Assembly: GCA_964019415.1 (NCBI GenBank)
Contig: OZ025871.1
Coordinates: 4,618,129 to 4,682,128 of the forward strand
Length of the DNA: 64,000 nucleotides
From: Ianthella basta
Taxonomy: Eukaryota; Porifera; Demospongiae; Verongiida; Ianthellidae
Direction of reading: 5' to 3'
Shown: positions 1,614-52,211 of the stretch, piece after piece
Layout: each line of letters opens with the position of its first letter
How positions within the stretch are numbered: the first letter of the stretch is position 1
Notes under the pieces: model-generated
What the model was told of the DNA's origin: nothing
Database searches by the model: none
Seen by the model: only the letters and a program-made list of their open reading frames with translations
Program-made: the position numbers and the translations under genes

Positions 1614-1744
1614 ATGATCACGTACACAGAAAAGTGGCATGTGTCACTTTAGACGAAACCCAACTTGATGTAGTGTGTGAAAGCATATTCATGTTTAGTC
1701 ATGTGGAGGAACTGAAATTTACAGACATCAAGAACCCCCAACAG
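1614..1744 (+). CDS. LRR exon B1
   Basis: 131-nt exon (acceptor cccacag, donor gtatgg) entered in phase 1 and left in phase 0. It encodes about 43 residues with the type-B pattern: VACVTLDETQLDVV, a cysteine/helix segment, then SHVEELKFTDIKNPQQ. The LxF/LxL-type cores fit a beta-strand to helix leucine-rich repeat. It is the most divergent B copy, with about half its residues matching B3 to B6, so it is an old member of the array. Known role of the family: LRRs form curved binding surfaces. The ligand here is unknown. Identification rests on homology to five other copies in the window and conserved phase. Confidence 0.8.
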
Positions 1745-7926: not shown

Positions 7927-8173
7927 ATACTAAGCCCTGAGCTTCTGAGCAAGATGGCTACAGCATTGGCTCAGAACAAGACATTGAAAGTGCTGGATCT
8001 GTCTAGTGCTGAGCAGCATCGGTTTCTGTTGAGACCACAGGCTAAAGGAGACCCGATTCAGTATATCACTTTGAAGCAGTTTATTGAACATCTCATGCTG
8101 GGTGTCTCTCCCAACACCACCCTGGAGAGAGTGGAGCTGGACTTTCCCCCCTGGTTGTCAGGTCAAATCAAGT
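7927..8173 (+). CDS. LRR exon A1
   Basis: 247-nt exon (acceptor ggtag, donor gtgagt) in phase 0 to 1. It encodes ILSPELLSKMATALAQNKTL followed by KVLDLSSAEQHRF and, after a longer spacer, HLMLGVSPNTTLERVELDF. This is the classic NLR/RNI repeat grammar: a helix (LLxxMAxALAxNxTL), an LxLxL strand, another helix, then NTTLxxVxL. It is longer than the other A exons (211 or 229 nt) and diverged, so it predates the recent A2 to A5 burst. It joins B1 upstream and B2 downstream in frame. Confidence 0.85.
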
Positions 8174-14487: not shown

Positions 14488-14618
14488 GTGGTAGTGCACA
14501 GGAATGCGTGGAGAGCATCTCTTTTGATCCTGTCCCACTTGATGTTGTGTGTGATGTAGTGAGGATCTTTGAACATGTGAAGGAGCTTCAGTGTATGAAC
14601 ATCACCATTCCATTGGAG
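14488..14618 (+). CDS. LRR exon B2
   Basis: 131 nt, phase 1 to 0 (acceptor ttctgtag, donor gtttgt). It encodes CVESISFDPVPLDVVCDVV followed by RIFEHVKELQCMNITIPLE. It keeps the PLDVVCDVV core and the FEHVKELxC strand of type B but is diverged from B3 to B6. It joins A1 upstream through a TGT (Cys) junction codon and A2 downstream in phase 0. Confidence 0.8.
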
Positions 14619-27272: not shown

Positions 27273-27483
27273 AGCCTGAGCCGTGACCTTCTGGACAAGA
27301 TGGCTACATCACTAGCTCAGAACAAGACAATGACAAAGTTGGAATTGATAGGTTATGACTTATCACATAATGAAGAAGTCAAGCTATTCACCCACCACCT
27401 CCTGTTGGGCCTCAGCAACAACACTACATTGACAGATTTGACACTGTGTCTACCAGAGCAGTGCTGGGACTGGCCTTGTGATG
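27273..27483 (+). CDS. LRR exon A2
   Basis: 211 nt, phase 0 to 1 (acceptor cactgcag, donor gtgagt). It encodes SLSRDLLDKMATSLAQN and KTMTK, then the variable LELIGYDLSHNEE, the constant KLFTHHLLLGLSNNTTL, then LTLCLPEQ and CWDWPCDG. These are two LRR strands separated by helices. The framework is shared with A3 to A5; the differences sit right after the two LxL strands. The first codon follows the acceptor directly; an upstream ATG in the intron frame is not expected to be used. The Asp/Gly junction codon is completed by exon B3. Confidence 0.93.
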
Positions 27484-28019
27484 GTGAGTTGAATGACAGT
27501 GTTTGATGTGTCACACTGACCTTGTAAGCTGTGATCATTGTCTGTAAACTGTAATGTGTACAGCTTGTCATACATTGCCTTTAGTGGTCCAGGCTCTCTG
27601 CAACTAATGCTGGAATGATAATGACCACTGCAGATACTGACTTGATGGGTCTCAAAGCTGCTCTCCTTACAACCTGCACCGTGTGCTACCTGGGTCCTAG
27701 TGTTTCATATTGTTGTAGCTTTCTAGTTGTTAGTGACGGCATGATATTGTCCACTTGTAGTTAGATGTACTAATCACTCACACACCTGTCATTTCACTAG
27801 GATACTTACATACATGGGATTAATGCAAGTAGAGATTCACTCACTTGTTGTTGATGTAATAGTAATGGTAGTAGGTAATTGTACTTGACTGCCAACCATG
27901 GCACAACCCATGTAGTTCTAACTGTGTTGTGGAAGGCTTAATTGTCAATGGTGTGTAAACCTTATAATGGACCACACTCACACTTGTAGCAGCTCATTTA
28001 CAAACCATTCTCTCTGTAG

Positions 28020-28150
28020 GCAATGTAGTGCAGAGGAGTGTGAAAAGGGTCACCTTGTCATGTGTTCCACTTGATTTGGTGTGTGGTGTTGTGGATTACT
28101 TTGAACATGTGGAAGAACTGAAGTGTGTGAACATCAAGGACCCACAGCAG
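28020..28150 (+). CDS. LRR exon B3
   Basis: 131 nt, phase 1 to 0 (acceptor tctctgtag, donor gtatgt). It encodes NVVQRSVKRVTLSCVPLDLV, then CGVVDYFEHVEELKCVNIKD and PQQ. It has a VTLxx strand, an amphipathic helix and an LKCVNI strand. It differs from B4 at two residues (K/E and SC/SH) and from B5 mainly at SC/ED, next to the strand. It joins A3 in phase 0. Confidence 0.93.
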
Positions 28151-28261
28151 GTATGTTTGTATAATTATAATTTACATCCCTGTGGGCGTTGTGCATTATG
28201 TATGCAGAGTCTGCTAACTCATAAGAGGAATACAGACAACAAAACCTGCTGCCTTTGATTA

Positions 28262-29157
28262 GCAAACATTAATGTAAAATATATACCAGCATGGCCTTTG
28301 GCTGTACTTGCTCTGCCTCATGTCACTGGCTGGACAGTGCAAGCTATCTTGTGTCGTTTGACTGGTTCCAATTGGCCAACATTGGTGGTATGCATGGTGC
28401 CAACTGCACTTGGGTGACACTGGCTGAACAGCGTTGATGTTGTTTGCACTGGCCTAGGCTCAGCCACGCACATTCATGCATGCACATATACTCACAAGTG
28501 TGTGTGCAACAGCAATGTACAGTAGCTGTAGGTGGCAAGGGCCCTGAGTATCAAAATGTGACTGTTTGTGCACAAGTGGTTTAGCTGGCACGCGAGGAAC
28601 TCGCAAGTATGCCCTTTGACCCACACACACCAGGGCTGTGATTTGTGAGAAGGTTGAGGGGGCCTGTCCCACTTCTAAGAAACCTGGAGGGGGACACTGA
28701 CTTGGACACTTGGACTTGGACACTGACACTGCTACTCTACACTTCACTGAGTAAGGGTGTTATATAATTACTTTGGTTAAAATTGCATTGCTAGGTATCT
28801 TATCCTCCCTCTGAAACTCTTTCCTTCCGTTTGCCCTCTCATCACTCCATGGCATTTTTCACGCACTCACCTACTACCATCTCTTGCCTGTTTTCATTGC
28901 TCACACAGTCCAAGCTAGTCACTTTCAAGCACTAACAGCTTTCAACTCTGTAGGCCTTCAATTATGAATAACTACTTTCTAGTTGAAATGATTCCTCACC
29001 ACACCCGCTGCTGTCAGTGCATGGTTGATTCCCATCTCAGTATGGCCCAACTACTCTACCCATTCCAATTGGGATTCTGGCCCCACCACTCCACTGACAT
29101 TTCACTGCTTCACAATGCCGGCAACTGGTACCTAACCTTTGACTGAGGTTTACTTGT
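28262..29157. repeat. shortened block M plus 5'-truncated block P
   Basis: Block M like that at 19.1 kb, then a P block lacking its CRE/YY1 head (from about 28,780), leading into Q. The same arrangement occurs at 42,233-43,135. In unit 2 this whole stretch is missing. Confidence 0.7.
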
Positions 29158-29638
29158 TGGTGTCGGATTTCGGACTCTTGCCATCTCTTCTGGTCGTTCT
29201 CGCGCTGCGCAATCAAGCGCCGAGTATTTTGCAAAGTAACGCACCATTTTGGTGTGTGACCAGAAAGCTATCACGTAGCGACAAGAACGAATGCAGTCGG
29301 CTGTTGAACATATAGTCCAGCAGCTAGAGTGGCTCCTAGGTTCTTTTCTGGGTCACAGAAGTGCCAGCAAGTAAAATACAAGCGTTCGCTTACCGTTCTC
29401 GTCTTCTTCGGCAGCACACGCTTGCGAAGAATCTAGAGCTGAGCCACGAACACCCCATAGCCTTCCTAAGGAACAGCACCATGGAATGCAACACCCAATG
29501 TCAACATTTTGCGCGAGGAAAGCCAGGAAAGCCACGGAAAAACAAAAGTACGGGGCTTGTACGTAGCCGCCATTTTTAAGTTGGGCTCACAGTACACGAG
29601 CACGAAGTTTGAAATTGGGTCCTAATGGGTTAAATGGC
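29158..29638 (-). repeat. cassette Q, copy 2
   Basis: Same as Q1, with the minus-strand motif AAAAATGGCGGCTACG near the right end and the donor-like gtaagcgaac. Compared with Q1 it has an extra ccaggaaag unit just inside the ATG frame. Confidence 0.6.
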
Positions 29639-30054
29639 TAAGCACAATGCATGTCAATCCACAAGCTGTGAATTGGATCATATCTTGCATTCCTGCACCA
29701 AAGCTGTCTCTGTGTCATTGCCAACATTGGTGGTATGGATAGTAACAACTGCAGATAGGTGACACTGGCTGGCTGCAGGTGTTGTCTGCACTGGCCTAGG
29801 CCCAACCATGCACATTCGTGCATGCACATATACTCAAAAGTGTGTGTGCAACAGCAATATACAGTAGCTGTAGGTGGCAAGGGCCCTGAGTATCAAAATG
29901 TGACTGTCTGATACATTTAGCTGGCACGGGAGGAACTCACTACACACAGTGTGGTCCTCGTTAGCGCTTGACCATAAACAAACAGTGGGAAGTGAGGTGA
30001 GCCCCACTGGCCACAGTAAGCAAGTAGAGTATGATAATTGGTGTGAATATTGAA
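29639..30054. repeat. block M between Q2 and S4
   Basis: Near-identical copy of 19,056-19,440. Confidence 0.7.
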
Positions 30055-31717
30055 GGATTTCAGGTAATCAACACATCTAGCATGCTTGGAAGATGAAGAA
30101 GAATTAATGTCACAATTTGCTAGTTATCTGTGTATTTGGTATGTCTGGTATCCCACTCTAACATGTTCAGTAGACATGGCACATGGAGGCAACAAACAGA
30201 GCATTACTTGTGCTCGACCACTTTGCTGGCTTCTGATCGAGTGGATCCATGTGGTCCATCCCACCTTTTGCTAAACATTCACAGTACACACTTGACCACT
30301 TGTGCATAGACTACCTTGCTGTGTTCAGTCCAGCACTCTATTTAGAATGTGAACAGCATACTTCACTCAAACCAACACACAGTGGACATACTGAAGCCAT
30401 GTGTGCACTTGTGGCCTACAGACTGATTTACCCATGGTGGTGGCTGGTGTGTAATTATATAATGGGCCTGCACTAATCTTCACAGCATGCAATATTTGCA
30501 GTGTCTAGTACAACTCTCAAGACTCTCATTTGGAATGTGCTCCCTGGGAACAGCATGGATCTCTACTGCCTCCTTTATTGCAGAAGATGGCTTCCATTTT
30601 GAGTGCACATTACTTTTGGTTCATTGAAAGTTATTAGAAGCAACAATGTATTGGTCTAATGGTAGTAAAGTCAAATGTTAGCAAAGGCATTGGAACACTT
30701 TTATAATAGTTTGGTAACTTAAAGTCTAAAAGTGTTGTGCTCGCTTACACATAGATATGTAGCTTTATGGGATTACTTAAGTCTGCTGCTAATCGGAATG
30801 GTAAAGAACAGTATCTGTGAGGTGTATAATTAACAGTTGAAAAGTTTGTAATACAGTAGTTCAAAGGTGGCCAAATTGGCTAGAACTGTGCCAACTTTAG
30901 GCTGTGAGCTGACTGCTTCCTCTAAACCTGCTTAGCCTGCTGCTGCATCTTCGTTCTGCACTTAAATCATCCACTAGCACTTGGCTTGTGACGATGTAAG
31001 GCTGTAGTATGTAACAGTGGACACAACAGAGAAGCAGTGCATGTAATGGCTTCCTACTGTCACCAGTTTGGTACACCAGCCAAGTTCATCACTATGATCT
31101 GGCCTAGGTCTTTTGTAATCGAAAGAACAGGAGTAACAGCAGCACTTTGGAAGATCTGTACCGACTAGGGCTCCTCCGATCAGTGCAGTCCTTGGGCACC
31201 AGGACTGTGAGGTGTGAGAAGACTGAGGGAACCTATCCCCCTTCTAAGAAACTGAAGGGGGGAGGGGGGCACTGACTTGGACACTAACACTGCTTCCCTA
31301 GCACTTCACTGAGTAAGGTGTATTAAAATTACTGTGGTTAAAAGCAATTATGCAATTCTGTTATGTCCTTTCTCTCCACCTTCTAATGAGGGCATTTTCA
31401 AACCCGTAGTTGCCTCCTCTATGTATAGTGCTGCTGAAGGCAAAAGCTATTTTTTCTGCATTTGGAAGTTGTTGTTGAAGCTGAGACTTCAGTAGTGACT
31501 CTAAAATCAGAGGTACCAGGACATGATAGCTCCAGAGGCTATCACTCAGTCACCTTGTCCACATCCTCCAATCTAGTCATGTCTAGCTCATGCATCTTGT
31601 AACTATCTCTTCAATGTGTGCAGCATGCTATGGTGTTTTGTGTCTGCTTAATAAGTGAATGTAGTGTGTTTTTGATATGCCATCTTATGGCCCTGTGTGA
31701 TGCTGTACGTTAGCCGC
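30055..31717 (+). repeat. intronic block S, copy 4
   Basis: Starts at ggatttcaggtaatcaacac. The frame 30,249-30,476 is open (SIPPFAKHSQYTLDHLC... ending YIMGLH). Followed by P4. Confidence 0.8.
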
Positions 31718-32384
31718 TATTTGTGACGTCATTAAAATGGCGGGTGGTCACACGCGCGGTCGCAAGGAACAAGAGAAGTGGTACTTCACACACAGCTCGC
31801 ACGTTGTCTGTGATTGAAACTTACAACAAGCCACCCAGTGTAGAGGTATCAACAGCGCTTCGGTTTCTTATCTGTCAGCACTACTTCTCACGGTGACTTA
31901 CGAAATTCGCAGCGAAAAAAGTTGGATCACCCTCGATCTGTTGCAGCGTGTCGTTTCCTCCTGCTGCCAGCAACCATCCTACACCATATTTCCAGTACTG
32001 CCCTATAATTATGAAGGACAACTGAAGAGCAACACAACAGCTAACCTCACTGCATGCATCATCAGGATTCAGAGAACCAGAGATACAGGGCATTACAAGC
32101 AGTGTGTGGTAAGTATTAATTACCACTCCATTGCTAGGTATCTTGTCCTCCCTCTGGACCTCCTACCTTCTGTTTGCCCTCTCACCACTCCATGGCGTAT
32201 CTCACACACTTCACAATTGTTCTTTCTCTCAAGCCTCTTCCTCATCACTCCTACTGCCCGTGCCTACTTCCATCTCTTGCCTGTTTTCATTCCTCACACA
32301 GTCCAAGCCAGTCACTTTCAAGCACTAACAGCTTCCAACTCTGTAGGCCTTCAATAATGAATAAGTGCTTTCTAGTTTTGAAAT
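31718..32384 (+). repeat. block P, copy 4 (cut by the gap)
   Basis: CRE at 31,724-31,731 followed by AAAATGGCGGGTGG. Reads identically, base for base as far as I can follow, to 32,585-33,251 and stops at the run of N. Confidence 0.85.
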
Positions 32385-32584
32385 NNNNNNNNNNNNNNNN
32401 NNNNNNNNNNNNNNNNNNNNNNNNNNNNNNNNNNNNNNNNNNNNNNNNNNNNNNNNNNNNNNNNNNNNNNNNNNNNNNNNNNNNNNNNNNNNNNNNNNNN
32501 NNNNNNNNNNNNNNNNNNNNNNNNNNNNNNNNNNNNNNNNNNNNNNNNNNNNNNNNNNNNNNNNNNNNNNNNNNNNNNNNNNNN
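32385..32584. other. assembly gap, 200 N
   Basis: Exactly 200 undefined bases, a usual placeholder length. Any translated frame through it is meaningless. Confidence 1.
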
Positions 32585-33785
32585 TATTTGTGACGTCATT
32601 AAAATGGCGGGTGGTCACACGCGCGGTCGCAAGGAACAAGAGAAGTGGTACTTCACACACAGCTCGCACGTTGTCTGTGATTGAAACTTACAACAAGCCA
32701 CCCAGTGTAGAGGTATCAACAGCGCTTCGGTTTCTTATCTGTCAGCACTACTTCTCACGGTGACTTACGAAATTCGCAGCGAAAAAAGTTGGATCACCCT
32801 CGATCTGTTGCAGCGTGTCGTTTCCTCCTGCTGCCAGCAACCATCCTACACCATATTTCCAGTACTGCCCTATAATTATGAAGGACAACTGAAGAGCAAC
32901 ACAACAGCTAACCTCACTGCATGCATCATCAGGATTCAGAGAACCAGAGATACAGGGCATTACAAGCAGTGTGTGGTAAGTATTAATTACCACTCCATTG
33001 CTAGGTATCTTGTCCTCCCTCTGGACCTCCTACCTTCTGTTTGCCCTCTCACCACTCCATGGCGTATCTCACACACTTCACAATTGTTCTTTCTCTCAAG
33101 CCTCTTCCTCATCACTCCTACTGCCCGTGCCTACTTCCATCTCTTGCCTGTTTTCATTCCTCACACAGTCCAAGCCAGTCACTTTCAAGCACTAACAGCT
33201 TCCAACTCTGTAGGCCTTCAATAATGAATAAGTGCTTTCTAGTTTTGAAATGATTCCTCACCACACCCACTGCTGCCAGTGCCTGGTTGATTCCCATCTC
33301 AGTATGGCCCAACTACTCTACCCATTCCAATTGGGATTCTGTCCCCTCCGCTCCACTAACATTTAACTGCTTCACAATGCCAGCAACTGGTACCTAACCC
33401 TTGACTGAGGTTTACTTGTTGGTGTACTATATTATTGAGATGTAGCTAACACTTCTGACACTGCTGACCACTGTCTAAAGGGCTAAGCACCATGCATGTC
33501 AATCCACAAGCTGTGAATTGGATCCAATCTTGCATTCCTGCGCCAAAGCTGTCTCTGTGGGTGATACTGTATCTGCCCATTAGAATTGTATTGTGAGGTG
33601 TTCTGCAGGGATCTCCATCTATCATGTCAGTAATGTGTTAACAGTAAGTGTTCTTTGGGACACTAGCTGGGGCACTCCTACCAACCTTGGCAGCTGATGA
33701 CTGTTGACTTGATGCAATGCTAATAGTGTCAATATTTCACTGTATACAGTTGTGGTGTATGCAATGCTCATCTTGAGTCATGCCT
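32585..33785 (+). repeat. block P, copy 5
   Basis: CRE at 32,591-32,598 and AAAATGGCGGGTGG. Complete through the RT fossil (HHSTDISLL-like degraded text, then YYLDVANTSDTADH-like and GVLQGSPSI-like) and on to gtggtgtatgcaatgctc. Its first 667 bp duplicate P4. Confidence 0.8.
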
Positions 33786-33982
33786 TGCCTTCAGGTACAT
33801 AGACTGGTTTTGAATGTACAATATCAGAAATCATTCTTCCCTGTCATTGTTGAAATGTAGTTTGATATTTCTGCCAAAGTTCTTGTTCAGATTTGCTATC
33901 ACTGATTTAATTAAAACTGCATCTTAAGCTTATTCATTCAAACAGCTCTTATAAATGGCTAGATCTCTGTGCGCGTGTGTGG

Positions 33983-33989
<7 letters not shown>

Positions 33990-34044
<55 letters not shown>
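33990..34044. repeat. (GT)n microsatellite
   Basis: About 27 GT units, positional equivalent of the array at 22,639. Confidence 0.95.
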
Positions 34045-34045
<1 letters not shown>

Positions 34046-35297
34046 ATGTTGGCCTGTATCACTCCCTCAGCATGGAAGGAAGGTGTGTGTCATGCTGTGC
34101 ATTCCTTCATTGTTGCTTTGCTATAGTGACCTTCTTTCTGTTGTGACTATACCTGCTAATGTTAAACTATTGCACAACTGATGTGCATTGCCCATTGTTT
34201 GACTCTTCATTGCCGATCCCGACCTTTGCCTTTAAGTGTGTTGCTCATTGTATCAGACAGCTGTCAGTGGTGGTGTGTATGCAGAGCAGAGAGTGGGCAC
34301 ATCTTTAAATCTGCTGATCTGCTCATGTTCTGTGCAGAATTTTCCTCGATCCTTGTGTCATAGTGTGTTGCTCAAGCTACATCCTTCTTGTCTTGTACTC
34401 TTCTAATTGCATTTGGACACCACTACGTATGTATACACTCAGTCTACATATCTCTCCTCCTTATACCCCGTTTGTTCCCCTATCTCAAGTCTTCACCAGT
34501 TGACTTCCCTGCAATGCATGGGGTGACCTATTAGCATAGCTGCTTAGCCTTCACTCCTTCCTCTGTCTCATTGTAAGCCGTCCCTCCTTTCACCACCTCC
34601 TGCTCTCACAGACTACACCTCCATGTGACTGGGGTGATAAGGCTAGTGTCTCTGCAGCCAATGGTGCCACTGGTCCTGTTGCAACCTGCTGGCTTACCAT
34701 GGGGTTCACATAGTCACGTCACGTCACGGGGTCTAAGTAGCTACTTCTTGACTGTGGTATTACAAGAACAAATACAAGTCTTCTACCTGCTACTGTTAAA
34801 CTATTGTGCAACTGATGTACATTGCCCATTGTTTGACTCTCTTCTTTGCCGACCCTGAGCTTTAGCCTTTTAATGTGTTGCTCACTGTATCAGACAGCTG
34901 TCAGTGGTTGTGTGTATGCCTTTTAACTAGAACAAGCTGAGAAAGGACACTGCTTTAGGGCTTCTGATGTACTCATGTTCTGTACAGAACTGTCCATATT
35001 TTCCTCTTTGTGTGACTGCTGGTGTGTTGCTGCAGATTTGTACTGTTCTAATTGCATTTGCACACCCTGCTACCTACACTCAGTCTACGTATTTCTCCTG
35101 CTTATACCCCGTTTGTTCCCCTATCTCAAGTCCACATCCCTGCAATGGTGTGACCTATTAGCATAGCTGCTTAGCCTTCACTCCTTTCTCTGTCTCATTG
35201 TAAGCCATCCCTCCTTTCACCACCTCCTGCTCTCACAGACTACATATTCTAGATAATTCATATGCTCATGTGTACTTCACCTCCTTGCTTACTGCAG
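34045..35297. other. intron upstream of exon A3, internally duplicated
   Basis: The phrase cattgcccattgtttgactcttc occurs twice (34,186 and 34,822). A roughly 600-bp stretch (ctgctaatgttaaactattg ... ctcacagactac) is repeated imperfectly, so this unit carries an extra partial tandem copy of the pre-A intron. No coding signal. Confidence 0.55.
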
Positions 35298-35508
35298 AGC
35301 CTGAGCCGTGACCTTCTGGACAGGATGGCTACATCACTAGCTCAGATCAAGACAATGACAAAGATGGAACTGAAGTGGTATGGCTTATCACCCAATGAAA
35401 ATGTCAAGCTATTCACCCACCACCTCCTGTTGGGCTTCAGCAACAACACTACATTGACAGATTTGTCACTGGATCTACCACCACAGTGCTGGGACTGGCC
35501 TTGTAATG
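35298..35508 (+). CDS. LRR exon A3
   Basis: 211 nt, phase 0 to 1. Constant start SLSRDLLDRMATSLAQIKTM, variable MELKWYGLSPNEN, constant helix KLFTHHLLLGFSNNTTL, second strand LSLDLPPQ, ending CWDWPCNG. Relative to A2 it differs at about six residues in the 13-residue patch after the first strand, but only at a few framework positions. Confidence 0.93.
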
Positions 35509-36044
35509 GTGAGTTGAATGACAGTGTTTGATGTGTCACACTGACCTTGTAAGCTGTGATCATTGTCTGTAAACTGTAATGTGTACAGCTTGTCATACAT
35601 TGCCTTTAGTGGTCCAGGCTCTCTGCAACTAGTGCTGGTAATGATAATGACCAGTGCAGATACTGACTTGAAGGGTCTCAAAGCTGCTCTCCTTACAACC
35701 TGCACTGTGTGCTACCTGGGTCCTAGTGTTTCATATTGTTGTAGCTTTCTAGTTGTTAGTGACGGCTTGATATTGTCCACTTGTGGTTTGATGTACTAAT
35801 CACTCACACCCCTGTCATTTCACTAGGATACTACATACATAGGATTAATGCAAGTAGAGATTCACTCACTTGTTGTTGATGTAATAGTAATGGTAGTAGG
35901 TAATTGTACTTGACTGCCAACCATGGCACAACCCATGCAGTTCTAACTGTGTTGTGGAAGGCTTAATTGTCAATGGTGTGTAAACCTTATAATGGACCAC
36001 ACTCACACTTGTAGCAGCTCATTTACAAACCTTTCTCTCTACAG

Positions 36045-36175
36045 GCAATGTGGTGCAGAGGAGTGTGGAAAGGGTCACCTTATCACATGTCCCACTTGAT
36101 TTGGTGTGTGGTGTTGTGGATTACTTTGAACATGTGGAAGAACTGAAGTGTGTGAACATCAAGGACCCACAGCAG
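36045..36175 (+). CDS. LRR exon B4
   Basis: 131 nt, phase 1 to 0 (acceptor ctctacag, donor gtatgt). NVVQRSVERVTLSHVPLDLV then CGVVDYFEHVEELKCVNIKD and PQQ. Nearly identical to B3. Unlike B3, only about 100 bp of intron precede the deletion scar. Confidence 0.93.
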
Positions 36176-36275
36176 GTATGTATGTATATTTTACATCCCT
36201 GTGGGCGTTGTGCATTATGTATGCAGAGTCTGCTAACTCATAAGAGGAATACAGATAACAAAACCTGCTGCCTTT

Positions 36276-36780
36276 GACTGAGGTTTACTTGTTGGTGTCG
36301 GATTTCGGACTCTTGCCATCTCTTCTGGTCGTTCTCGCGCTGCGCAATCAAGCGCCGAACGTTTTGTGAAGTTACGCACCATTTTGGTGTGTGACCAGAA
36401 AGCTACCACGTACCACGTAGCGACAAGAACGAATGCAGACGGCTGATGAACAAAGAGTCCAGCAGCTAGAGCAGCTCCTAGGTTCTTTTCTGGGTCACAG
36501 AAGTGCCAGCAAATAAAATACAAGCGTTCGCTTACTGTTCTCGTCTTCTTCGGCAGCACACACTTGTGAAGAATCTAGAGCTGGGCCATGAACACCCCAT
36601 AGCCTCCCTAAGGAACAGCACCATGGAATGCAACACCCAATGTCAACATTTTGCGCGAGGAAAGCCAGGAAAGCCACGGAAAAACAAAAGTACGGGGCTT
36701 GTATGTAGCCGCCATTTTTAAGTTGGGCTCACAGTACACGAGCGCGAAGTTTGAAATTGGGTCCTAATGGGTTAAATGGC
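36276..36780 (-). repeat. cassette Q, copy 3
   Basis: Starts at the scar cctttgactgagg after B4. Minus-strand AAAAATGGCGGCTACA motif near the right end. The block is complete, including ccaggaaag as in Q2. Confidence 0.6.
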
Positions 36781-37194
36781 TAAGCACCATGCATGTCAAT
36801 CCACAAGCTGTGAATTGGATCATATCTTGCATTCCTGCACCAAAGCTGTCTCTGTGTCATTGCCAACATTGGTGGTAGGGATAGTAACAACTGCAGATAG
36901 GTGACACTGGCTGGCTGCAGGTGTTGTCTGCACTGGCCTAGGCCCAACCATGCACATTCGTGCATGCACATATACTCACAAGTGTGCGTGTGCAACAGCA
37001 ATATACAGTAGCTGTAGGTGGCAAGGACCCTGAGTATCAAAATGTGACTGTCTGATACATTTAGCTGGCACGGGAGGAACTCACTACACACAGTGTTAGT
37101 ACATGACCATAAACAAACAGTGGGAAGTGAGGTGAGCCCCACTGGCCACAGCAAGCAAATACAATATGATAATGTGTATGAATGTTGAAGGATT
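36781..37194. repeat. block M between Q3 and S5
   Basis: Near-identical copy of the M blocks at 19.1 and 29.6 kb. Confidence 0.7.
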
Positions 37195-38872
37195 TCAGGT
37201 AGTCAACACATCTAGCATGCTTGGAAGATGAAGAAGAATTAATGTCACAATTTGCTAGTTATCTGTGTATTTGGTATGTCTGGTATCCCACTCTAACATG
37301 TTCAGTAGACATGGCACATGGAGGCAACGAACAGAGCATTACTTGTGCTCGACCACTTTGCTGGCTTCTGATCGAGTGGATCCATGTGGTCCATCCCACC
37401 TTTTGCTAAACATTCACAGTACACATTTGACCACTTGTGCATAGACTACCTTGCTGTGTTCAGTCCAGCACTCTATTTAGAATGTTAACAGCATACTTCG
37501 TTCAAACCAACGTACACACAGTGGACAAACTGAAGCCATGTGTGCACTTGTGGCCTACAGACTGATTTACCCATGGTGGCAGCTGGTGTGTAATTATATA
37601 ATGGGCCTGCACTAATCTTCACAGCAAGCAATATTTGCAGTGTCTAGTACAACTCTCAAGACTCTCATTTGTAATGTGCTCCCTTGGGAACAGCATGGAC
37701 CTCTACTGCCTCCTTTATTGCAGAAGATGGCTTCCATTTTGAGTGAACATTAATTTTGGTTCATTGAAAGTTATTAGAAGCAACAATGTATTGGTCTAAT
37801 GGTAGTAAAGTCAAATGTTAGCAAAGGCATTGGAACACTTTTATAATAGTTTGGTAACTTAAAGTCTAAAAGTGGTGTGCTCGCTTATACATAGATATGT
37901 AGCTTTATGGGATTACTTAAGTCTGCTGCTAATCGGAATGGTAAAGAACAGTATCTGTGAGGTGTATAATTAACAGTTGAAAAGTTTGTAATACAGTAGT
38001 TCAAAGGTGGCCAAATTGGCTAGAACTGTGCCAACTTTAGGCTGTGAGCTGACTGCTTCCTCTAAACCTGCTTAGCCTGCTGCTGCATCTCCATTCTGCA
38101 CTTAAATCATCCACTAGCACTTGGCTTGTGACGATGTAAGGCTGTAGTATGTAACAGTGGACACAACAGAGAAGCAGTGCATGTAATGGCTTCCTACTGT
38201 CACCAGTTTGGTACACCAGCCAAGTTCATCACTATGATCTGGCCTAGGTCTTTTGTAATCGAAAGAACAGGAGTAACAGCAGCACTTTGGAAGATCTGTA
38301 CCGACTAGGGCTCCTCCGATCACTGCAGTCCTTGGGCACCAGGACTGTGAGGTGTGAGAAGACTGAGGGGACCTATCCCCCTTCTAAGAAACTGAAGGGG
38401 GGAGGGGGCACTGACTTGGACACTAACACTGCTTCCCTAGCACTTCACTGAGTAAGGTGTATTAAAATTACTGTGGTTAAAAGCAATTATGCAATTCTGT
38501 TATGTCCTTTCTCTCCACCTTCTAATGAGGGCATTTTCAAACCCGTAGTTGCCTCCTCTATGTATAGTGCTGCTGAAGGTACAAGCTATTTTTTCTGCAT
38601 TTGGAAGTTGTTGTTGAAGCTGAGACTTCAGTAGTGACTCTGAAGTCAGAGGTATCTACCAGGACATGATAGTTCCAGAGGCTATCACTCAGTCACCTTG
38701 TCCACATCCTCCAATCTAGTCATGTCTAGCTCATGCATCTTGTAACTATCTCTTCAATGTGTGCAGCATGCTATGGTGTTTTGTGACTGCTTAATAAGCG
38801 AGTGTAGTGTGTTTTTGATATGCCATTTTATGGCCCTATGTGCCCTGTGTGACGCTGTATGTTAGCCGCTCT
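37195..38872 (+). repeat. intronic block S, copy 5
   Basis: As S4, but the shared frame is broken: tttagaatgttaacag gives a stop after ALYLEC, and tacgtacaca adds bases. S6 carries the same two changes. Confidence 0.8.
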
Positions 38873-40015
38873 TTGTGACGTCATTAAAATGGCGGGTGGT
38901 CACAACCGCGGTCGCAAGGAACAAGAGAAGTGGTACTTCACACACAGCTCGCACGTTATCTGTGATTGAAACGTACAACAAGCCATCCAGTGTAAAGGTA
39001 TCAACAGCGCTTCGGTTTCTTATCTGTCAGCACTACTTCTCACGGTGACTTACGAAATTCGCAGCGAAAAAAGTTGGATCACCCTCGATCTGTTGCAGCG
39101 TGTCGTTTCCTCCTGCTGCCAGCAACCATCCTACACCATATTTCCAGTACTGCCCTATAATTGTGAAGGACAACTGAAGAGCAACACAACAGCTAACCAC
39201 ACTGCATGCATCATCAGGATTCAGAGAACCAGAGATACAGGCAATTACAGTCAGTGTGTGGTAAGTATGAATTACCACTCCATTACGTATCTTGTCCTCC
39301 CTCTGGACCTCCTTCCTTCTGTTTGCCTCTCATCACTCCATGGCGTATCTCACACAATTCACAATTGTTCTTTCTCTCAAGCCTCTTCCTCATCACTCCT
39401 ACTGCCAGTGCCTACTTCCATCTCTTGCCTGTTTTCATTCCTCACACAGTCCAAGCTAGTCACTTTCAAGCACTAACAACTTTCAATTCTGTAGGCCTTA
39501 AATAATGAGTAAGTGCTTTCTAGTTTTGAAATGATTCCTCACCACACCCACTGCTGTCAGTGCCTGGTTGATTCCCATCTCAGTATGGCCCAACTACTCT
39601 ACCCATTCCAATTGAGATTCTGGCCCCACCACTCCACTGACATTTCACTGCTTCACAATGCTGACAACTGGTACCTAATCTTTGACTGAGGTTTACTTGT
39701 TGGTGTACTATATTATTTAGATGTGGCTAACACTTCTGACACTGCTGACCACTGTCTAATCATTAAAAGGCTAAGCACCATGCATGTCATTCCACAAGCT
39801 GTGAATTGGATCCAATCTTGCATTCCTGCACCAAAGCTGTCTCTGTGGGTGATACTGTATCTGCCCATTAGAATTGTATTGTGGGGTGTTCTGTAGGGGG
39901 CACTCCTACCAACCTTGGCAGCTGATGACTGTTGACTTGATGCAATGCTAATAGTGTCAATATTTCACTGTATACAGTTGTGGTGTATGCAATGCTCATC
40001 TTGAGTCATGCCTTG
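38873..40015 (+). repeat. block P, copy 6
   Basis: CRE at 38,876-38,883 with AAAATGGCGGGTGG. Complete, but about 55 bp are missing near the end (ttctgtaggggg joins directly to cactcctacc). Confidence 0.75.
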
Positions 40016-40338
40016 CCTTCAGGTACATAGACTGGTTTTGAATGTACAATACCAGAAATCATTCTTCCCTGTCATTGTTGAAATGTAGTTTGATATTCCT
40101 GCCAAAGTTCTTATTCAAATTTGCTATCACTGATTTGGTTGAAACTGCATCTTAAGTTCCTTCAATTGACCAGTTCTCAAAATTTTAATCTCCAAATATG
40201 GAGATGTACTAGTAATAGTTACTAAGTCACATGACATAATATTTGAGGTAATGTATTGGAATAACAGTACTGTAAATTAGCTATTACAGCTACATATTTT
40301 ACTGGTAAGTGGTATTGCACCACCATCTCTTCTATCAG

Positions 40339-40342
<4 letters not shown>

Positions 40343-40388
<46 letters not shown>

Positions 40389-40405
40389 TGTGTGTGAGTG
40401 AGTCT
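40343..40405. repeat. (GT)n microsatellite, first of a pair
   Basis: About 23 GT units, separated by 110 bp of intervening sequence (tctggccagctcaccc ... gaactggactg) from a second array. Confidence 0.9.
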
Positions 40406-40511
40406 GGCCAGCTCACCCTTTTTCTGACGGCATGGCCTCTGAAACAGGGCACTAACCTAGGTGCCCTGCCCTACGCCCTTAGGATTGCAAGGAGACGGAC
40501 TGAACTGGACT

Positions 40512-40512
<1 letters not shown>

Positions 40513-40568
<56 letters not shown>
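40513..40568. repeat. (GT)n microsatellite, second of a pair
   Basis: About 28 GT units. The other units have one array, so the 110-bp middle looks like an insertion into a formerly single array. Confidence 0.9.
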
Positions 40569-40569
<1 letters not shown>

Positions 40570-41240
40570 ATGTTAGCCTGTATCACTCCCTCGCGAGTGC
40601 AAACACCATGGAAGGAGGGTATTTGTGTGGCATGCTGTCAAATCGTACACTGTTGCAATAACGACCTTCTTTCTGCAATGACTATCTGTTGAACTAAACC
40701 TGCTAATGTTAAACTATTGTACAACTGATGTGCATTGCCCATTGTTTGGCTCTTCTTTGCTGACCCTGAGCTTTAGCCTTTAAATGTGTTGCTCATTGTT
40801 TCAGACAGCTGTCTGTGGTTGTGTGTATGCCTTTTGGTGTAACTAGAACAAGCTGAAAGAGGGCACAGCTTTCAGTCTTCTGATGTACTCATGTTCTGTG
40901 CAGAACTGTCCATATTTTCAGGCTTCTTAGTGTGACCGCAGGTGTGTTGCTCAAGCTACATCTTCCAGACCTGTACAGTTCTAATTGCATTTGCACACCC
41001 TGCTACCTACACTCAGTCTACGTATCTCTCCTGCTTATACCCCATTTGTTCCCCTATCTCAAGTCTTCACCTGTCCACTTCCCTGCAATGGGGTGACCTA
41101 TTAGCATAGCTGCTTAGCCTTCGCTCCTTCCTCTGTCTCATTGTAAGCCATCCCTCCTTTCACCACCTCCTGCTCTCACAGACTACATATTCTAGATAAT
41201 TCATATGCTCATGTGTACTTCACCTCCTTGCTCACTGCAG

Positions 41241-41451
41241 AGCCTGAGCCGTGATCTTCTGGACAAGATGGCTACATCACTAGCTCAGAACAAGACAATG
41301 ACAAAGCTGGAATTGAAGGGTGGTGGCTTAAGATCTAATGAAGATGTCAAGCTATTCACCCACCACCTCCTGTTGGGCCTCAGCAACAACACTACATTGA
41401 CAGATTTGACACTGAGTCTACCACCACAGTGCTGGGACTGGCCTTGTGATG
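41241..41451 (+). CDS. LRR exon A4
   Basis: 211 nt, phase 0 to 1. SLSRDLLDKMATSLAQN and KTMTK, then variable LELKGGGLRSNED, constant KLFTHHLLLGLSNNTTL, second strand LTLSLPPQ, ending CWDWPCDG. Against A2, the 65 nt before the first strand differ by one synonymous change, while about ten differences fall in the roughly 36 nt after it. Confidence 0.93.
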
Positions 41452-41989
41452 GTGAGTTGAATGTCAGTGTTTGATGTGTCACACTGACCTTGTAAGCTGT
41501 GATCATTGTCTGTAAACTGTAATGTGTACAGCTTGTCATACATTCCCTTTAGTGGTCCAGGCTCTCTGCAACTAGTGCTGGTAATGATAATGACCAGTGC
41601 AGATACTGACTTGAAGGGTCTCAAAGCTGCTCTCCTTACAACCTGCACTGTGTGCTACCTGGGACCTAGTGTTTCATATTGTTGTAGCTTTCTAGTTGTT
41701 AGTGACAGCTTGATATCGTCCAATCTGTGGTTTGATGTACTAATCACTCACACCCCTGTCATTTCACTAGGATACTTACGTACATAGGATTAATGCAAGT
41801 AGAGATTCACTCACTTGTTGTTGATGTAATAGTAATGGTAGTAGGTAATTGTACTTGACTGCCAACCATGGCACAACCCATGCAGTTCTAACTGTGTTGT
41901 GGAAGACTTAATTGTCAATGGTGTGTAAACCTTATAATGGACCACACTCACACTTGTAGCAGCTCATTTACAAACCTTTCTCTCTACAG

Positions 41990-42120
41990 GCAATGTGGTG
42001 CCAAGGAGCGTGAAAAGGGTCACCTTAGAAGATGTCCCACTTGATGTGGTGTGTGGTGCTGTGGATTACTTTGAACATGTGGAAGAACTGAAGTGTGTGA
42101 ACATCAAGGACCCACAGCAG
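41990..42120 (+). CDS. LRR exon B5
   Basis: 131 nt, phase 1 to 0 (acceptor ctctacag, donor gtacgt). NVVPRSVKRVTLEDVPLDVV then CGAVDYFEHVEELKCVNIKD and PQQ. The strand-proximal pair is ED in place of SC/SH in B3/B4. Identical to B6 except in the last third. Confidence 0.93.
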
Positions 42121-42232
42121 GTACGTTTGTATAATTATATTTTACATCCTTGTGGGCGTTGTGCATTATGTATGCAGAGTCTGCTAACTCATAAGAGGAA
42201 TACAGATAACAAAACCTGCTGCCTTTGATTAG

Positions 42233-43135
42233 CAAACATTAATGTAAAATATATACCAGCATGGCCTTTGGCTGTGCTCTGCCTCATGTCACTGGCTGGA
42301 CAGTGCAAGCTATCTTGTGTCGTTTGACTGGTTCCAATTGGCCGACATTGGTGGTATGCATGGTGCCAACTGCACTTGGGTGACACTGGCTGAACAGCGT
42401 TGATGTTGTTTGCACTGGCCTAGGCTCAGCCATCCACTTTCGTGCATGCACATAATTATACTCACAAGTGTGTGTGCAACAGCAATGTACAGTAGCTGTA
42501 GGTGGCAAAGGCCCTAGCTGAGTATCAAAATGTGACTGTCTGTGCACAAGTGGTTTAGCTGGCACGCGAGGAACTCGCAAGTATGCCCTTTGACCCACAC
42601 ACACCAGGGCTGTGATTTGTGAGAAGGTTGAGGGGGCCTGTCCCACTTCTAAGAAACCTGGAGGGGGACACTGACTTGGACACTTGGACTTGGACACTGA
42701 CACTGCTACTCTACACTTCACTGAGTAAGGGTGTTATATAATTACTTTGGTTAAAATTGCATTGCTAGGTATCTTATCCTCCCTCTGAAACTCTTTCCTT
42801 CCGTTTGCCCTCTCATCACTCCATGGCATTTCTCACACACTCACCTACTACCATCTCTTGCCTGTTTTCATTCCTCGCACAGTCCAAGCTAGTCACTTTC
42901 AAGCACTAACAGCTTTCAACTCTGTAGGCCTTCAATTATGAATAACTACTTTCTAGTTGAAATGATTCCCCACCACACCCACTGCTGTCAGTGCCTGGTT
43001 GATTCCCATCTCAGTATGGCCCAACTACTCTACCCATTCCAATTGGGATTCAGGCCCCACCACTCCACTGACATTTCACTGCTTCACAATGCTGACAACT
43101 GGTACCTAACCTTTGACTGAGGTGTACTTGTTGGT
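42233..43135. repeat. shortened block M plus 5'-truncated block P
   Basis: Copy of 28,262-29,157 with small differences (an extra aatt near 42,452). Confidence 0.7.
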
Positions 43136-43462
43136 GACGGATTTCAGACTCTCGCTGTCTCTCCTGGTCGTTCTCGCGCTGCGCAATCAAGCGCCGAACG
43201 TTTTGCGGAGTTACGCACCATTTTGGTGTGTGACCAGAAAGCTACCACGTAGCATGTAGCGACAAGAACGAATGCAGACGGCTGTTGAACAAATAGTCCA
43301 GCAGCTAGAGCGGCTCCTAGGTTCTTTTCTGGGTCACAGAAGTGCCAGCAAGTAAAATACAAGCGTTCGCTTACCGTTCTCGTCTTCTTCGGCAGCACAC
43401 GCTTGCAAAGAATCTAGAGCTGGGCCACGAACACCCCATAGCCTTCCTAAGGAACAGCACTA
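43136..43462 (-). repeat. cassette Q, copy 4 (truncated)
   Basis: Ends after aaggaacagcac and joins straight into block M at taggcccaacc. The YY1/TISU motif and ATG frame of the other Q copies are deleted. Confidence 0.65.
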
Positions 43463-43715
43463 GGCCCAACCATGCACATTCGTGCATGCACATATACTCA
43501 CAAGTGTGTGTGTGCAACAGCAATGTACAGTAGCTGTAGGTGGCAAGGGCCCTGAGTATCAAAATGTGACTGTCTGATACATTTAGCTGGCACGGGAGGA
43601 ACTCACTACACACAGTGTTAGTACATGACCTTAAACAAACAGTGGGAAGTGAGGTGAGCCCCACTGGCCACAGTAAGCAAACAGAATATGATAATGTGTA
43701 TGAATGTGGAAGGAT
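43463..43715. repeat. right part of block M
   Basis: Only the half from taggcccaaccatgcac onward remains. Confidence 0.65.
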
Positions 43716-45389
43716 TTCAGGTAATCAACACATCTAGCATGCTTGGAAGATGAAGAAGAATTAATGTCACAATTTGCTAGTTATCTGTGTGTTTGGTATG
43801 TCTGGTATCCCACTCTAACATGTTCAGTAGACATGGCACATGAAGGCAACGAACAGAGCATTACTTGTGCTCGACCACTTTGCTGGCTTCTGATCGAGTG
43901 GATCCATGTGGTCCATCCCACCTTTTGCTAAACATTCACAGTACACATTTGACCACTTGTGCATAGACTACCTTGCTGTGTTCAGTCCAGCACTCTATTT
44001 AGAATGTTAACAGCATACTTCGTTCAAACCAACGTACACACAGTGGACAAACTGAAGCCATGTGTGCACTTGTGGCCTACAGACTGATTTACCCATGGTG
44101 GCAGCTGGTGTGTAATTATATAATGGGCCTGCACTAATCTTCACAGCAAGCAATATTTGCAGTGTCTAGTACAACTCTCAAGACTCTCATTTGTAATGTG
44201 CTCCCTGGGAACAGCATGGACCTCTACTGCCTCCTTTATTGCAGAAGATGGCTTCCATTTTGAGTGAACATTAATTTTGGTTCATTGAAAGTTATTAGAA
44301 GCAACAATGTATTGGTCTAATGGTAGTAAAGTCAAATGTTAGCAAAGGCATTGGAAGACTTTTATAATAGTTTGGTAACTTAAGTCTAAAAGTGTTGTGC
44401 TCGCTTATACATAGATATGTAGCTTTATGGGATTACTTAAGTCTGCTGCTAATCGGAATGGTAAAGAACAGTATCTGTGAGGTGTATAATTAACTGTTGA
44501 AAAGTCTGTAGTACAGTAGTTCAAAGGTGGCCAAATTAGTTAGAACTGTGCCAACTTTAGGCTGTAATCTGACTGCTTCCTCTAAACCTGCTTAGCCTGC
44601 TGCTGCATCTCCATTCTGCACTTAAATCATCCACTAGCACTTGGCTTGTGACGATGTAAGGCTGTAGTATGTAACAGTGGACACAACAGAGAAGCAGTGC
44701 ATGTAATGGCTTCCTACTGTCGCCAGTTTGGTACACCAGCCAATTAAGTTCATCACCATAATCTGGCCTAGGTCTTTTGTAATCGAAAGAACAGGAGTAA
44801 CAGCAGCACTTTGGAAGATCTGTACCGACTAGGGCTCCTTCGATCACTGCAGTCCTTGGGCACCAGGACTGTGAGGTGTGAGAAGACTGAGGGGACCTAT
44901 CCCCCTTCTAAGAAACTGAAGGGGGGAGGGGGGCACTGACTTGGACACTAACACTGCTTCCCTAGCACTTCACTGAGTAAGGTGTATTAAAATTACTGTG
45001 GTTAAAAGCAATTATGCAATTCTGTTATGTCCTTTCTCTCCACCTTCTAATGAGGGCATTTTCAAACCCGTAGTTGCCTCCTCTATGTATAGTGCTGCTG
45101 AAGGTAAAAGCTATTTTTTCTGCATTTGGAAGTTGTTGTTGAAGCTGAGACTTCAGTAGTGACTCTGAAGTCAGAGGTAGCTACCAGGACATGATAGCTC
45201 CAGAGGCTATCACTCAGTCACCTTGTCCACATCTTCCAATCTAGTCATGTCTAGTTCATGCATCTTGTAACTATCTCTTCAATCTGTGCAGCATGCTATG
45301 GTGTTTTGTGACTGCTTAATAAGTGAATGTAGTGTGTTTTTGACATGCCATCTTATGGCCCTGTGTGATGCTGTATGTTAGCCGCTATT
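43716..45389 (+). repeat. intronic block S, copy 6
   Basis: As S5, including the same frame-breaking agaatgttaacag. Followed by P7. Confidence 0.8.
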
Positions 45390-46600
45390 TGTGACGTCAT
45401 TAAAATGGCGGGTGGTCACACGCGCGGTAGCAAGGAACAAGAGAAGTGGTACTTCACACACAGCTCGCACGTTGTCTGTGATTGAAACTTACAACAAGCC
45501 ACCCAGTGTAGAGGTATCAACAGCGCTTCGGTTTCTTATCTGTTAGCACTACTTCTCACGGTGACTTACGAAATTCGCAGCGAAAAAAGTTGGATCACCC
45601 TCGATCTGTTGCAGCGTGTCGTTTCCTCCTGCTGCCAGCAACCATCCTACACCATATTTCCAGTACTGCCCTATAATTGTGAAGGACAACTGAAGAGCAA
45701 CACAACAGCTAACCACACTGCATGCATCATCAGGATTCAGAGAACCAGAGATACAGGGCATTAGAGGCAGTGTGTGGTAAGAATTAATTACCACTCCATT
45801 ACTAAGTATCTTGTCCTCCCTCTAGACCTCCTACCTTCTGTTTGCCCTCTCACCACTCCATGGCGTATCTCACAAACTTCACAATTGTTCTTTCTCTCAA
45901 GCCTCTTCCTCATCACTCCTACTGCCAGTGGCTACTTCCATTTCTTGCATGTTTTCATTCCTCACACAGTCCAAGCCAGTCACTTTCAAGCACTAACAGC
46001 TTTCAGCTCTGTAGGCCTTCAATAATGAATAACTGCTTTCTAGTGTTGAAATGATTCCTCGCCACACCCACTGCTGTCAGTGCCTGGTTGATTCCCATCT
46101 CAGTATGGCCCAACTACTCTACCCATTCCAATTGGGATACTGGCCCCACCTCTCCACTGACATTTCACTGCTTCACAATGCCAAGAACTGGTACCTAACC
46201 TTTGACTGAGGTTTACTTGTTGGTGTACTATATTATTTAGATGTGGCTACCACTTCTGACACTGCTGACCACTGTCTAATCATTAAATGCTAAGCACCAT
46301 GCATGTCAATCCACAAGCTGAGAATTGGATCCAATCTTGTATTCCTGCACCAAAGCTGTCTCTGTGGGTGATACTGTATCTGCCCATTAGAATTGTATTG
46401 TGAGGTGTTCTGCAGGGATCTCCATCTATCATGTCAGTAATGTGTTAACAGTAAGTGTTCTTTGGGACACTAACTGGGGCACTCCTACCAACCTTGTCAG
46501 CTGATGACTGTTGACTTCATGCAATGCTAAGAGTGTCAATATTTCACTGTATACAGTTGTGGTGTATGCAATGCTCATCTTGAGTCATGCCTTGCCTTCA
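45390..46600 (+). repeat. block P, copy 7
   Basis: CRE at 45,392-45,399 and AAAATGGCGGGTGG. Complete through the RT fossil. Confidence 0.75.
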
Positions 46601-46788
46601 GGTACATAGACTAGATTTGAATGTACAATACCAGAAATCATTCTTCCCTGTCATTGTTGAAATGTAGTTTGATATTCCTGCCAAAGTTCTTGTTCAAATT
46701 TGCTATCACTGATTTGGTTGAAACTGCATCTTAAGTTCCTTCAATTGACCAGTCCTCAAATTCTTAATCTCCAAATATGGAGATGTAC

Positions 46789-47232
46789 CACCGTAAATAT
46801 TCTAAAAAAATTGACAATCTAAAGTTCACAAACTTCCAGCGATCTTGCCTTGACCCGCTCTAAAACTTTGATATATTTACTGTCTCTACAGCTTGGAAAA
46901 CCTCTAATTTTGGCAAGGGTAAGGTTATATCGCCATTAATTTTGCCTCCATTCTTGATGAGCACGAACGCTTCGCCAATACTGGGGTTCCACACCTTGTA
47001 GACATGATATCTGCAAATAACGCACGATATTGTTACAAAGGAAACGCCAGCGGCTGCCATTTTCTGTACAGAGCCTTCCAAAAAGTGGCGCCAGAGATCA
47101 CTCCAATTTTGCAAGAAGGCTCTATTTTCACAAGAAAAAGACAGCAAAGAAGATCATAATGCCTCCTAACTTTCAAAAGGTTAGATTTGAAATGCAGATA
47201 AAGTTTACGAATTTTTAGAATATTTACGGTAG
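46789..47232 (-). mobile_element. MITE-like element with TA target and captured coding fragment
   Basis: Terminal inverted repeat CCGTAAATATTCTA at the left and TAGAATATTTACGG at the right, then extended imperfect similarity. The paralogous site at 40.2 kb reads gatgtactagtaatag without it; here the flanks are gatgtacCA and TAgtaatag, so TA was duplicated and one copy mutated. On the minus strand an ATG in a YY1/TISU-like context (AAAATGGCAGCCGC, ATG at 47,058-47,060) opens a 66-codon frame containing YHVYKVWNPSIGEAF. From memory this resembles the start of HIRAN-type domains in invertebrate proteins, suggesting a captured host exon. No transposase is present. Confidence 0.7.
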
Positions 47233-47885
47233 TAATAGTTACTAAGTCACACGTACAAACACGTACACTGTCATTGTCTCCCACCTCCCCCAAACTTACT
47301 CACGTACACATGCATGCACACATTGAATATTTGTGTGTATGTGTGTGTGGGGGGGAGGGGGGAGGATAGAGCCTCACAATCTTCAAGGTGGGAACACAAC
47401 TGACCTCTCCAAATCCACTACCAACAGCCTGCCTGGTGTTGGGTTTGGGGGCAAGACTTGTGGTGTACACGTAGCTGTGGTTGTGTGTATGCCTAACAAG
47501 CTGAGAGAGGGCACAGCTTTAGGTTTGCTGATGTACTCATGTTCTGTGCAGAACTGTCCATGTTTTTCTTCTTGTGTCACGGCTGGTGTGTTGCTCAAGC
47601 TGTATCCTTCCAGACTTGTACTGTTCTAATTGCACGTGGACACCCTGCTACCTACACTCAGTCTACGTATTTCTTCTGCTTATACCCCGTTTTGTTCCCC
47701 TATCTCAAGTCCTCTCCAGTCCACTTTCCTGCAATGGGTGACCTATTAGCATAGCTGCTTAGCCTTCACTCCTTTCTCTGTCTCATTGTAAGCCATCCCT
47801 CCTTTCACCACCTCCTGCTCTCACAGACTACATATTCTAGACAATTCATATGCTCATGTGTACTCCACCTTCTGGCTCAATGCAG

Positions 47886-48114
47886 AGCCTGAGCCGTGAC
47901 CTTCTGGACAAGATGGCTACATCACTAGCTCAGAACAAGACAATGACAAAGATGGAATTGAGTTGTTTTGATTCCTATGGGAGGTCCACCCTGACATCTA
48001 ATGAAGATGTCAGGCTATTCACCCACCACCTCCTGTTGGGCCTCAGCTACAACACTACATTGACAGATTTGTCACTGGATCTACCACCACAGTGCTGGGA
48101 CTGGCCTTGTGATG
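47886..48114 (+). CDS. LRR exon A5 (with 6-codon insertion)
   Basis: 229 nt, phase 0 to 1. Framework as in A2 to A4, but the variable patch is MELSCFDSYGRSTLTSNED, six codons longer than in A2 to A4, with the frame preserved. The second strand is LSLDLPPQ as in A3, and the helix reads LGLSYNTTL (N to Y). The lengthened loop follows a predicted beta strand. Confidence 0.93.
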
Positions 48115-48652: not shown

Positions 48653-48783
48653 GCAATGTGGTGCCAAGGAGCGTGAAAAGGGTCACCTTAGAAGATGTCC
48701 CACTTGATGTGGTGTGTGGTGCTGTGGATTACTTTGAACACGTGGAAGAGCTCAACTGTGTGTACATCAGGGCCCCACAGCAG
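48653..48783 (+). CDS. LRR exon B6 (last B)
   Basis: 131 nt, phase 1 to 0 (acceptor tctacag, donor gtacat). Same as B5 up to FEHVEEL, then NCVYIRAPQQ in place of KCVNIKDPQQ, so the final strand is altered. It joins exon C in phase 0. Sequence similarity to the other units stops soon after its donor, marking the end of the duplicated array. Confidence 0.93.
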
Positions 48784-52114: not shown

Positions 52115-52211
52115 ACAGTTGGTATGAAGTCTTCAGCAATGCCCTCCAGATGCCTGACAGCCAGTCGGGCTGCTGATCTACCAGGAGCTGTCTCAACGCC
52201 GGGGGAACTGA

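Follow-up and report, generated by a model that had tools for sequence, protein, structure and literature searches.

Nearly identical LRR exons in predicted NACHT-LRR (NLR) genes of the sponge Ianthella basta were observed to vary strongly at a few codons, which lie on or just after the predicted LRR strands, while the surrounding exon and intron sequences are almost uniform. It is likely that this pattern arose from diversifying selection on the LRR face of NLRs, combined with the exchange of LRR modules and the shuffling of short tracts. We describe here the exons of one 64,000-nucleotide stretch of DNA (the window) and their relatives elsewhere in the same assembly.

Exon layout and variable codons

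The LRR exons of the window and the variable parts of its A exons are the following.

1614..1744, +, exon B1 (LRR; first B-type exon after the NACHT exon), phase 1 to 0
7927..8173, +, exon A1 (LRR, A1 type)
14488..14618, +, exon B2 (LRR, B2 type)
27273..27483, +, exon A2 (two LRR strands), phase 0 to 1
27342..27371, +, hypervariable patch of A2 (codons 24–33)
27441..27458, +, second variable spot of A2 (codons 57–62)
28020..28150, +, exon B3 (two LRR strands), phase 1 to 0
35298..35508, +, exon A3
35367..35396, +, hypervariable patch of A3
35466..35483, +, second variable spot of A3
36045..36175, +, exon B4
41241..41451, +, exon A4
41310..41339, +, hypervariable patch of A4
41409..41426, +, second variable spot of A4
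41990..42120, +, exon B5
47886..48114, +, exon A5 (patch six codons longer)
47955..48002, +, hypervariable patch of A5, long form
48072..48089, +, second variable spot of A5
48653..48783, +, exon B6

Exon A is bordered by a CAG acceptor and a GTGAGT donor and runs from phase 0 to 1, and exon B, about 0.5 kb downstream, runs from phase 1 to 0. Therefore, an A-B pair has a whole number of codons and only the order A-B-A-B is frame-safe. The window opens a stretch of 264 kb that contains three units with the order B1, A1, B2 followed by two to four A-B pairs; the third unit has the A1 and B2 types repeated ahead of its pairs.

The preliminary description had proposed that exons A2 to A5 share a framework and differ mainly in a patch after the LxL strand and in a second small spot. 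We read all four patch motifs exactly (window positions 27339, 35364, 41307 and 47952, + strand), as well as the second-spot motifs LTLCLPEQ, LSLDLPPQ and LTLSLPPQ (27438, 35463, 41406 and 48069, + strand). The differences between A2 and A4 were indeed concentrated and mostly amino-acid changing: 16 of 213 nt differ, 11 of them in exon nt 67–105 and four in the second spot, and only two of the 16 fall in codons that keep their amino acid (5 and 23).

The same pattern holds beyond these four exons and is larger than was first described. There are at least 118 copies of the A2 type, and we collected 58 distinct ones; 43 came from short regions (50 in number) and 15 from longer loci. Of the 58, 57 were in frame and one was frameshifted. 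Among the 57 intact copies, 62% of the pairwise differences fall in 12 of the 71 codons. In the 81-column alignment of these copies, whose column numbers are used below (in exon A2, residues 57, 59 and 62 correspond to columns 67, 69 and 72), the framework is mostly near-invariant, and columns 24, 26–29, 40–43, 67, 69 and 72 are variable. Columns 30–39 are additional in-frame codons present in at most 14 copies. The leucines between the variable positions are retained in most copies.

Mean pairwise pN/pS was 0.031/0.062 in the framework (59 codons), 0.445/0.261 at columns 24 and 26–29, 0.243/0.293 at columns 40–43 and 0.359/0.120 in the second spot (columns 67, 69 and 72), and the flanking introns differed by 0.049 upstream and 0.055 downstream. 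In the 15 copies aligned together with their introns, diversity was 0.335 at codons 24–29, 0.252 at codons 30–33 and 0.187 at codons 57–62, compared with 0.025–0.035 in the rest of exon A and 0.044 in the A-B intron; the 400 bases upstream of exon A were more diverse (0.088), mainly beyond −150. The spread of variation over exon and intron, which had been set beforehand as a test, was thus uneven, with the patches far above the framework and the A-B intron.

The fold model of exon A, built from 64 sequences (mean pLDDT 82), has a helix at residues 4–16, a strand at 22–26, a helix at 34–47 and a strand at 55–59. Within the modelled strands, leucines 25, 56 and 58 are interspersed with the variable residues 24, 26, 57 and 59, and the variable residues 27–33 and 62 come just after these strands. 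The earlier proposal that the variable residues face the ligand agrees with the model as far as their siting on or just after two strands is concerned; the ligand side comes from the general LRR pattern, according to which they would face the concave side. An LRR exon matched an LRR protein of known structure weakly by sequence (E 0.0055), and fold searches with the single exon were weak as well. The Pfam LRR models remained below cut-off on exons A, A1 and B (LRR_6 reached 12.6 bits on A1 against a cut-off of 23.4, with no match on A2 and B3). Repeats of the WD, ANK or TPR type, as in fungal NLRs, were considered and rejected, with no Pfam match at E up to 1 on exons A2, A1 and B3.

Among 15 copies of exon B, the most variable residues were 14–15, after the first strand, and 35, 37, 38, 40 and 41, around the second; residues 5, 9, 20 and 24 vary as well, and one copy (L004) is disrupted close to its end. 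Outside the patches, diversity was about 0.13 in an alignment that is partly out of register because one copy has a longer intron. The general level of diversity is higher in exon B and its flanks, so the contrast between patch and background is weaker there.

Recombination and probable selection at the patches

A dN/dS well above 1 at the variable codons had been named as a sign of diversifying selection. We observed values of 2.11 at columns 24 and 26–29 and 3.73 in the second spot. Columns 40–43, the right-hand portion of the first patch, fell short of this with 0.79, and that patch as a whole gave 1.42. Diversity at the three codon positions was 0.55, 0.47 and 0.22 for columns 24 and 26–29, and 0.039, 0.024 and 0.050 for the framework. 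All nine codons found at column 28 end in T and all seven at column 41 end in A. For single codons, we used our own grid in the manner of FUBAR on two trees, each of which assumes one history despite recombination. P(beta>alpha) was at least 0.98 on both trees for columns 26, 28, 29, 41, 67 and 69; the framework columns 4, 46 and 50 reached 0.98 on one tree only, and column 24 was not flagged on these two trees. Such one-tree tests are unreliable here, because all four gametes occur in 858 of 2,485 site pairs (mean r2 about 0.03 beyond 20 bases). The excess of amino-acid over silent change, except in the right part of the patch, and the location on or just after the modelled strands nevertheless support the diversifying selection suggested earlier.

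Silent change was also raised in the patches (pS of 0.26 at columns 24 and 26–29 against 0.06 in the framework), which indicates that point mutation and selection are insufficient as the whole account. In 16 disjoint close pairs, the patch had pS 0.188 and pN 0.257, and the framework 0.019 and 0.011, respectively. Recombination is heavy, and patches or parts of patches have seemingly been swapped as short blocks. Identical patches occur on differing downstream sequences, left halves are joined to various right halves, and some long patches, e.g. in L047 and L079, resemble two joined patches. There are 48 distinct patches among the 57 copies, some of them common to several genes.

The raised silent diversity (0.21–0.60) at columns 27, 29, 40 and 42, together with identical patches on differing backgrounds, could also mean that balancing selection holds ancient patch alleles while conversion renews their surroundings, with little new change. 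We regard this as rather unlikely, because silent diversity stays near the framework level at columns 24, 26, 28, 41, 67, 69 and 72, so that much of the change seems young.

Another explanation is that a mutator or a templated process hits the patch and selection only filters the products, as in a diversity-generating element or in V-gene conversion. Silent diversity that is raised in the patch but not in the framework or the A-B intron, the many variable codons of the form NNT, NNC or NNA and the joined appearance of the long patches would all fit. However, by a minimal spanning count the 79 non-silent patch steps include 36, 37 and 6 at the three codon positions, which in an informal comparison is close to what the codons themselves would give (43, 45 and 13%), and the patches shared by several genes are inherited ones. 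Focal mutagenesis is, in our judgement, very unlikely.

Free drift of surface loops in a degenerating or non-immune repeat would agree with the length changes tolerated by the patch and with the frameshift in one of 58 exons, but it is highly improbable, as patch change far above the intron level is unlike drift alone, the leucines between the variable positions are kept and related exons vary at the same place.

NACHT exons and the extent of the array

The NACHT open frame of the window's gene (582 aa; L032:8179-9924) stops 73 bases ahead of the window start. In Pfam, NACHT was the top of 35 families on this frame (E 4e-18; 66.2 bits, cut-off 26.7). NB-ARC was far poorer, at 19.8 bits under a cut-off of 23.5, and a plant-type NLR was therefore rejected. 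In a sister gene, the third unit of the 264 kb stretch, a NACHT domain directly precedes B1, with a weak CARD also upstream (L018:2932-3342; 20.2 bits, cut-off 23.9). The single open reading frame tested upstream of the window's NACHT (L032:2-517) gave no CARD or DEATH match. In the second unit, no NACHT was scored. The NACHT and LRR exons share one strand and the phases of the LRR exons are compatible. Judged by these sequence features, the genes are predicted to be of the NACHT-LRR (NLR) type.

We searched the same assembly (209 Mb, 96 contigs) for both kinds of exon. The counts of both searches are lower bounds. With exon B, 150 of 332 candidates were scored: at least 118 full B3-type exons lie on contig C4, all on the + strand, between 3.98 and 8.34 Mb (about 4.4 Mb). 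Of the remaining scored candidates, one was a partial exon on C4, three were on contig C51, and 28 matched less well and belonged to other B types. The 119 matches on C4 group into 63 clusters of one to four. With the NACHT exon, 78 of 442 candidates were scored, and at least 56 NACHT exons were found on C4, all on the + strand, between 3.97 and 8.32 Mb, with neighbours a median of 74 kb apart. Three groups can be told apart by how similar they are to the query, 11 exons at 86–100% identity, 22 at 60–63% and 23 at 54–58%. The array probably comprises about 56–63 genes.

The near-identical module type, present in one to four copies per cluster, is common to genes with far-apart NACHT domains. 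We compared 48 exon-A copies from 35 genes, none of them more than 50 kb from a NACHT exon. Over framework and flanks, the distance was 0.047 for copies of one NACHT group and 0.043 for copies of different groups (p 0.88 over 1,000 permutations), and 0.032 inside single genes (16 pairs), whereas one pair of group I and group II NACHT exons had a dS of 1.70 and 62% protein identity. The A1-type exons of the array share 61–100% protein identity with the window's A1 (49 matches). As the module DNA is alike across divergent NACHT groups and A1 is less so, it is the A2-B3 modules, not entire genes, that are homogenised, and the uniform background seems to result from this levelling between genes. 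Patch distance was slightly lower within groups (0.313) than between them (0.335; p 0.005), which suggests that the exchange of modules is not wholly free.

A protein search with exon A gave 63 relatives from ENA, JGI and NCBI sources. Of the 60 that were read, 50 fit a simple pattern in which the stretch after the first strand is variable again. The closest of these relatives may come from the same species.

Three B exons at C51:42468-55205 have scores identical to those of three neighbouring B exons of the window and are probably an unplaced second haplotype, which would lend itself to comparing alleles. At 31718-33251 of the window, identical sequences of 667 bases (100%) flank a gap of 200 N (32385-32584), probably an unmerged assembly overlap. 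Both features could hint at copies that are collapsed or chimaeric haplotypes, yet this is hardly credible for an array whose 63 clusters are spread over 4.4 Mb and whose NACHT exons belong to three divergent groups, and given the presence of the exon family with other patches in other public assemblies, some of which may be of the same species.

Further NACHT clusters were observed on contigs C2, C5, C8, C10, C17 and C18, often with all loci of a cluster on one strand. At C10:325952 and C10:1316189, NACHT lies inside open frames of 2,224 and 3,877 aa, much longer than the rest of the 102 listed.

Proposed mechanism and related systems

In the explanation that we favour, the LRR modules would be A-B pairs with four strands each, placed in NACHT-LRR receptors. 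Selection for new binding specificities would act on residues of the concave face. Unequal exchange and gene conversion would copy modules among genes and keep the framework uniform, and the same exchange would reshuffle patches and patch halves among same-strand modules. Each gene would thereby combine a number of different recognition faces with a single signalling unit, and the outcome would be a germline repertoire of microbial recognition. Animal NLRs sense microbes and signal through the NACHT and N-terminal domains, and by analogy the receptor probably senses microbial molecules and signals in this way. The array looks like an inherited repertoire of many specificities.

It is also conceivable, but decidedly unlikely, that the genes draw on a shared pool of LRR modules in which short-tract conversion directed at the patch, perhaps also in body cells, keeps making new binding faces and passes them to genes with differing signalling halves. 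If so, an animal that lacks lymphocytes would possess an anticipatory repertoire.

Plant NLRs and lamprey VLRs have LRRs with variable residues on the concave face; the former use NB-ARC, and the latter are assembled somatically from LRR cassettes without NACHT. The preliminary description had likened the exons to both. The likeness to NLRs is apt, as the genes are predicted to be NLRs, but nothing was found that points to VLRs, and the neighbouring NACHT argues against somatic assembly of the VLR type.

The array resembles the bona fide NLRs of animals, in particular the expanded NLRs of sponges (PMC12909245), in having NACHT followed by LRRs, in large lineage-specific numbers and with some near-identical chromosome neighbours. 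That study, in the parts available to us, compares NACHT domains and architectures, and its main text does not contain the words positive selection, diversifying, hypervariable or tandem. Compared with the genes described in those parts, the LRR modules here are homogenised, hypervariable at a few codons and set in one same-strand array of 4.4 Mb. Zebrafish NLR-B30.2 genes (PMC4852459, consulted in part) also number in the hundreds and show exon-dependent gene conversion and variable LRR copy number. In the portion consulted, selection is assigned to B30.2 and the LRRs are described as not particularly variable, whereas the variation here is carried by the LRRs. The nearest known system in behaviour, as far as the sections consulted go, is that of the fungal NLR repeats of the WD, ANK or TPR type (PMC4986451), which are near-identical, change in number, are shuffled within and between genes and are under positive selection at binding-surface positions. 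The repeat here differs from them in being an LRR, encoded by an intron-separated exon pair behind an animal-type NACHT.

With more than 100 homologous LRR modules in one genome, changing and constant residues can be told apart codon by codon, and the modules could serve directly as receptor variants when ligands are sought. The array also makes it testable whether a germline repertoire of specific recognition is built by module exchange in such animals.

Two other parts of the window were noted. An open-frame stretch between A1 and B2 (12262-12582) has no Pfam match and no copy in the other units of the 264 kb stretch. At 51362-52132 on the − strand, there is an open frame of 256 aa, which resembles a tyrosine recombinase of a mobile element.
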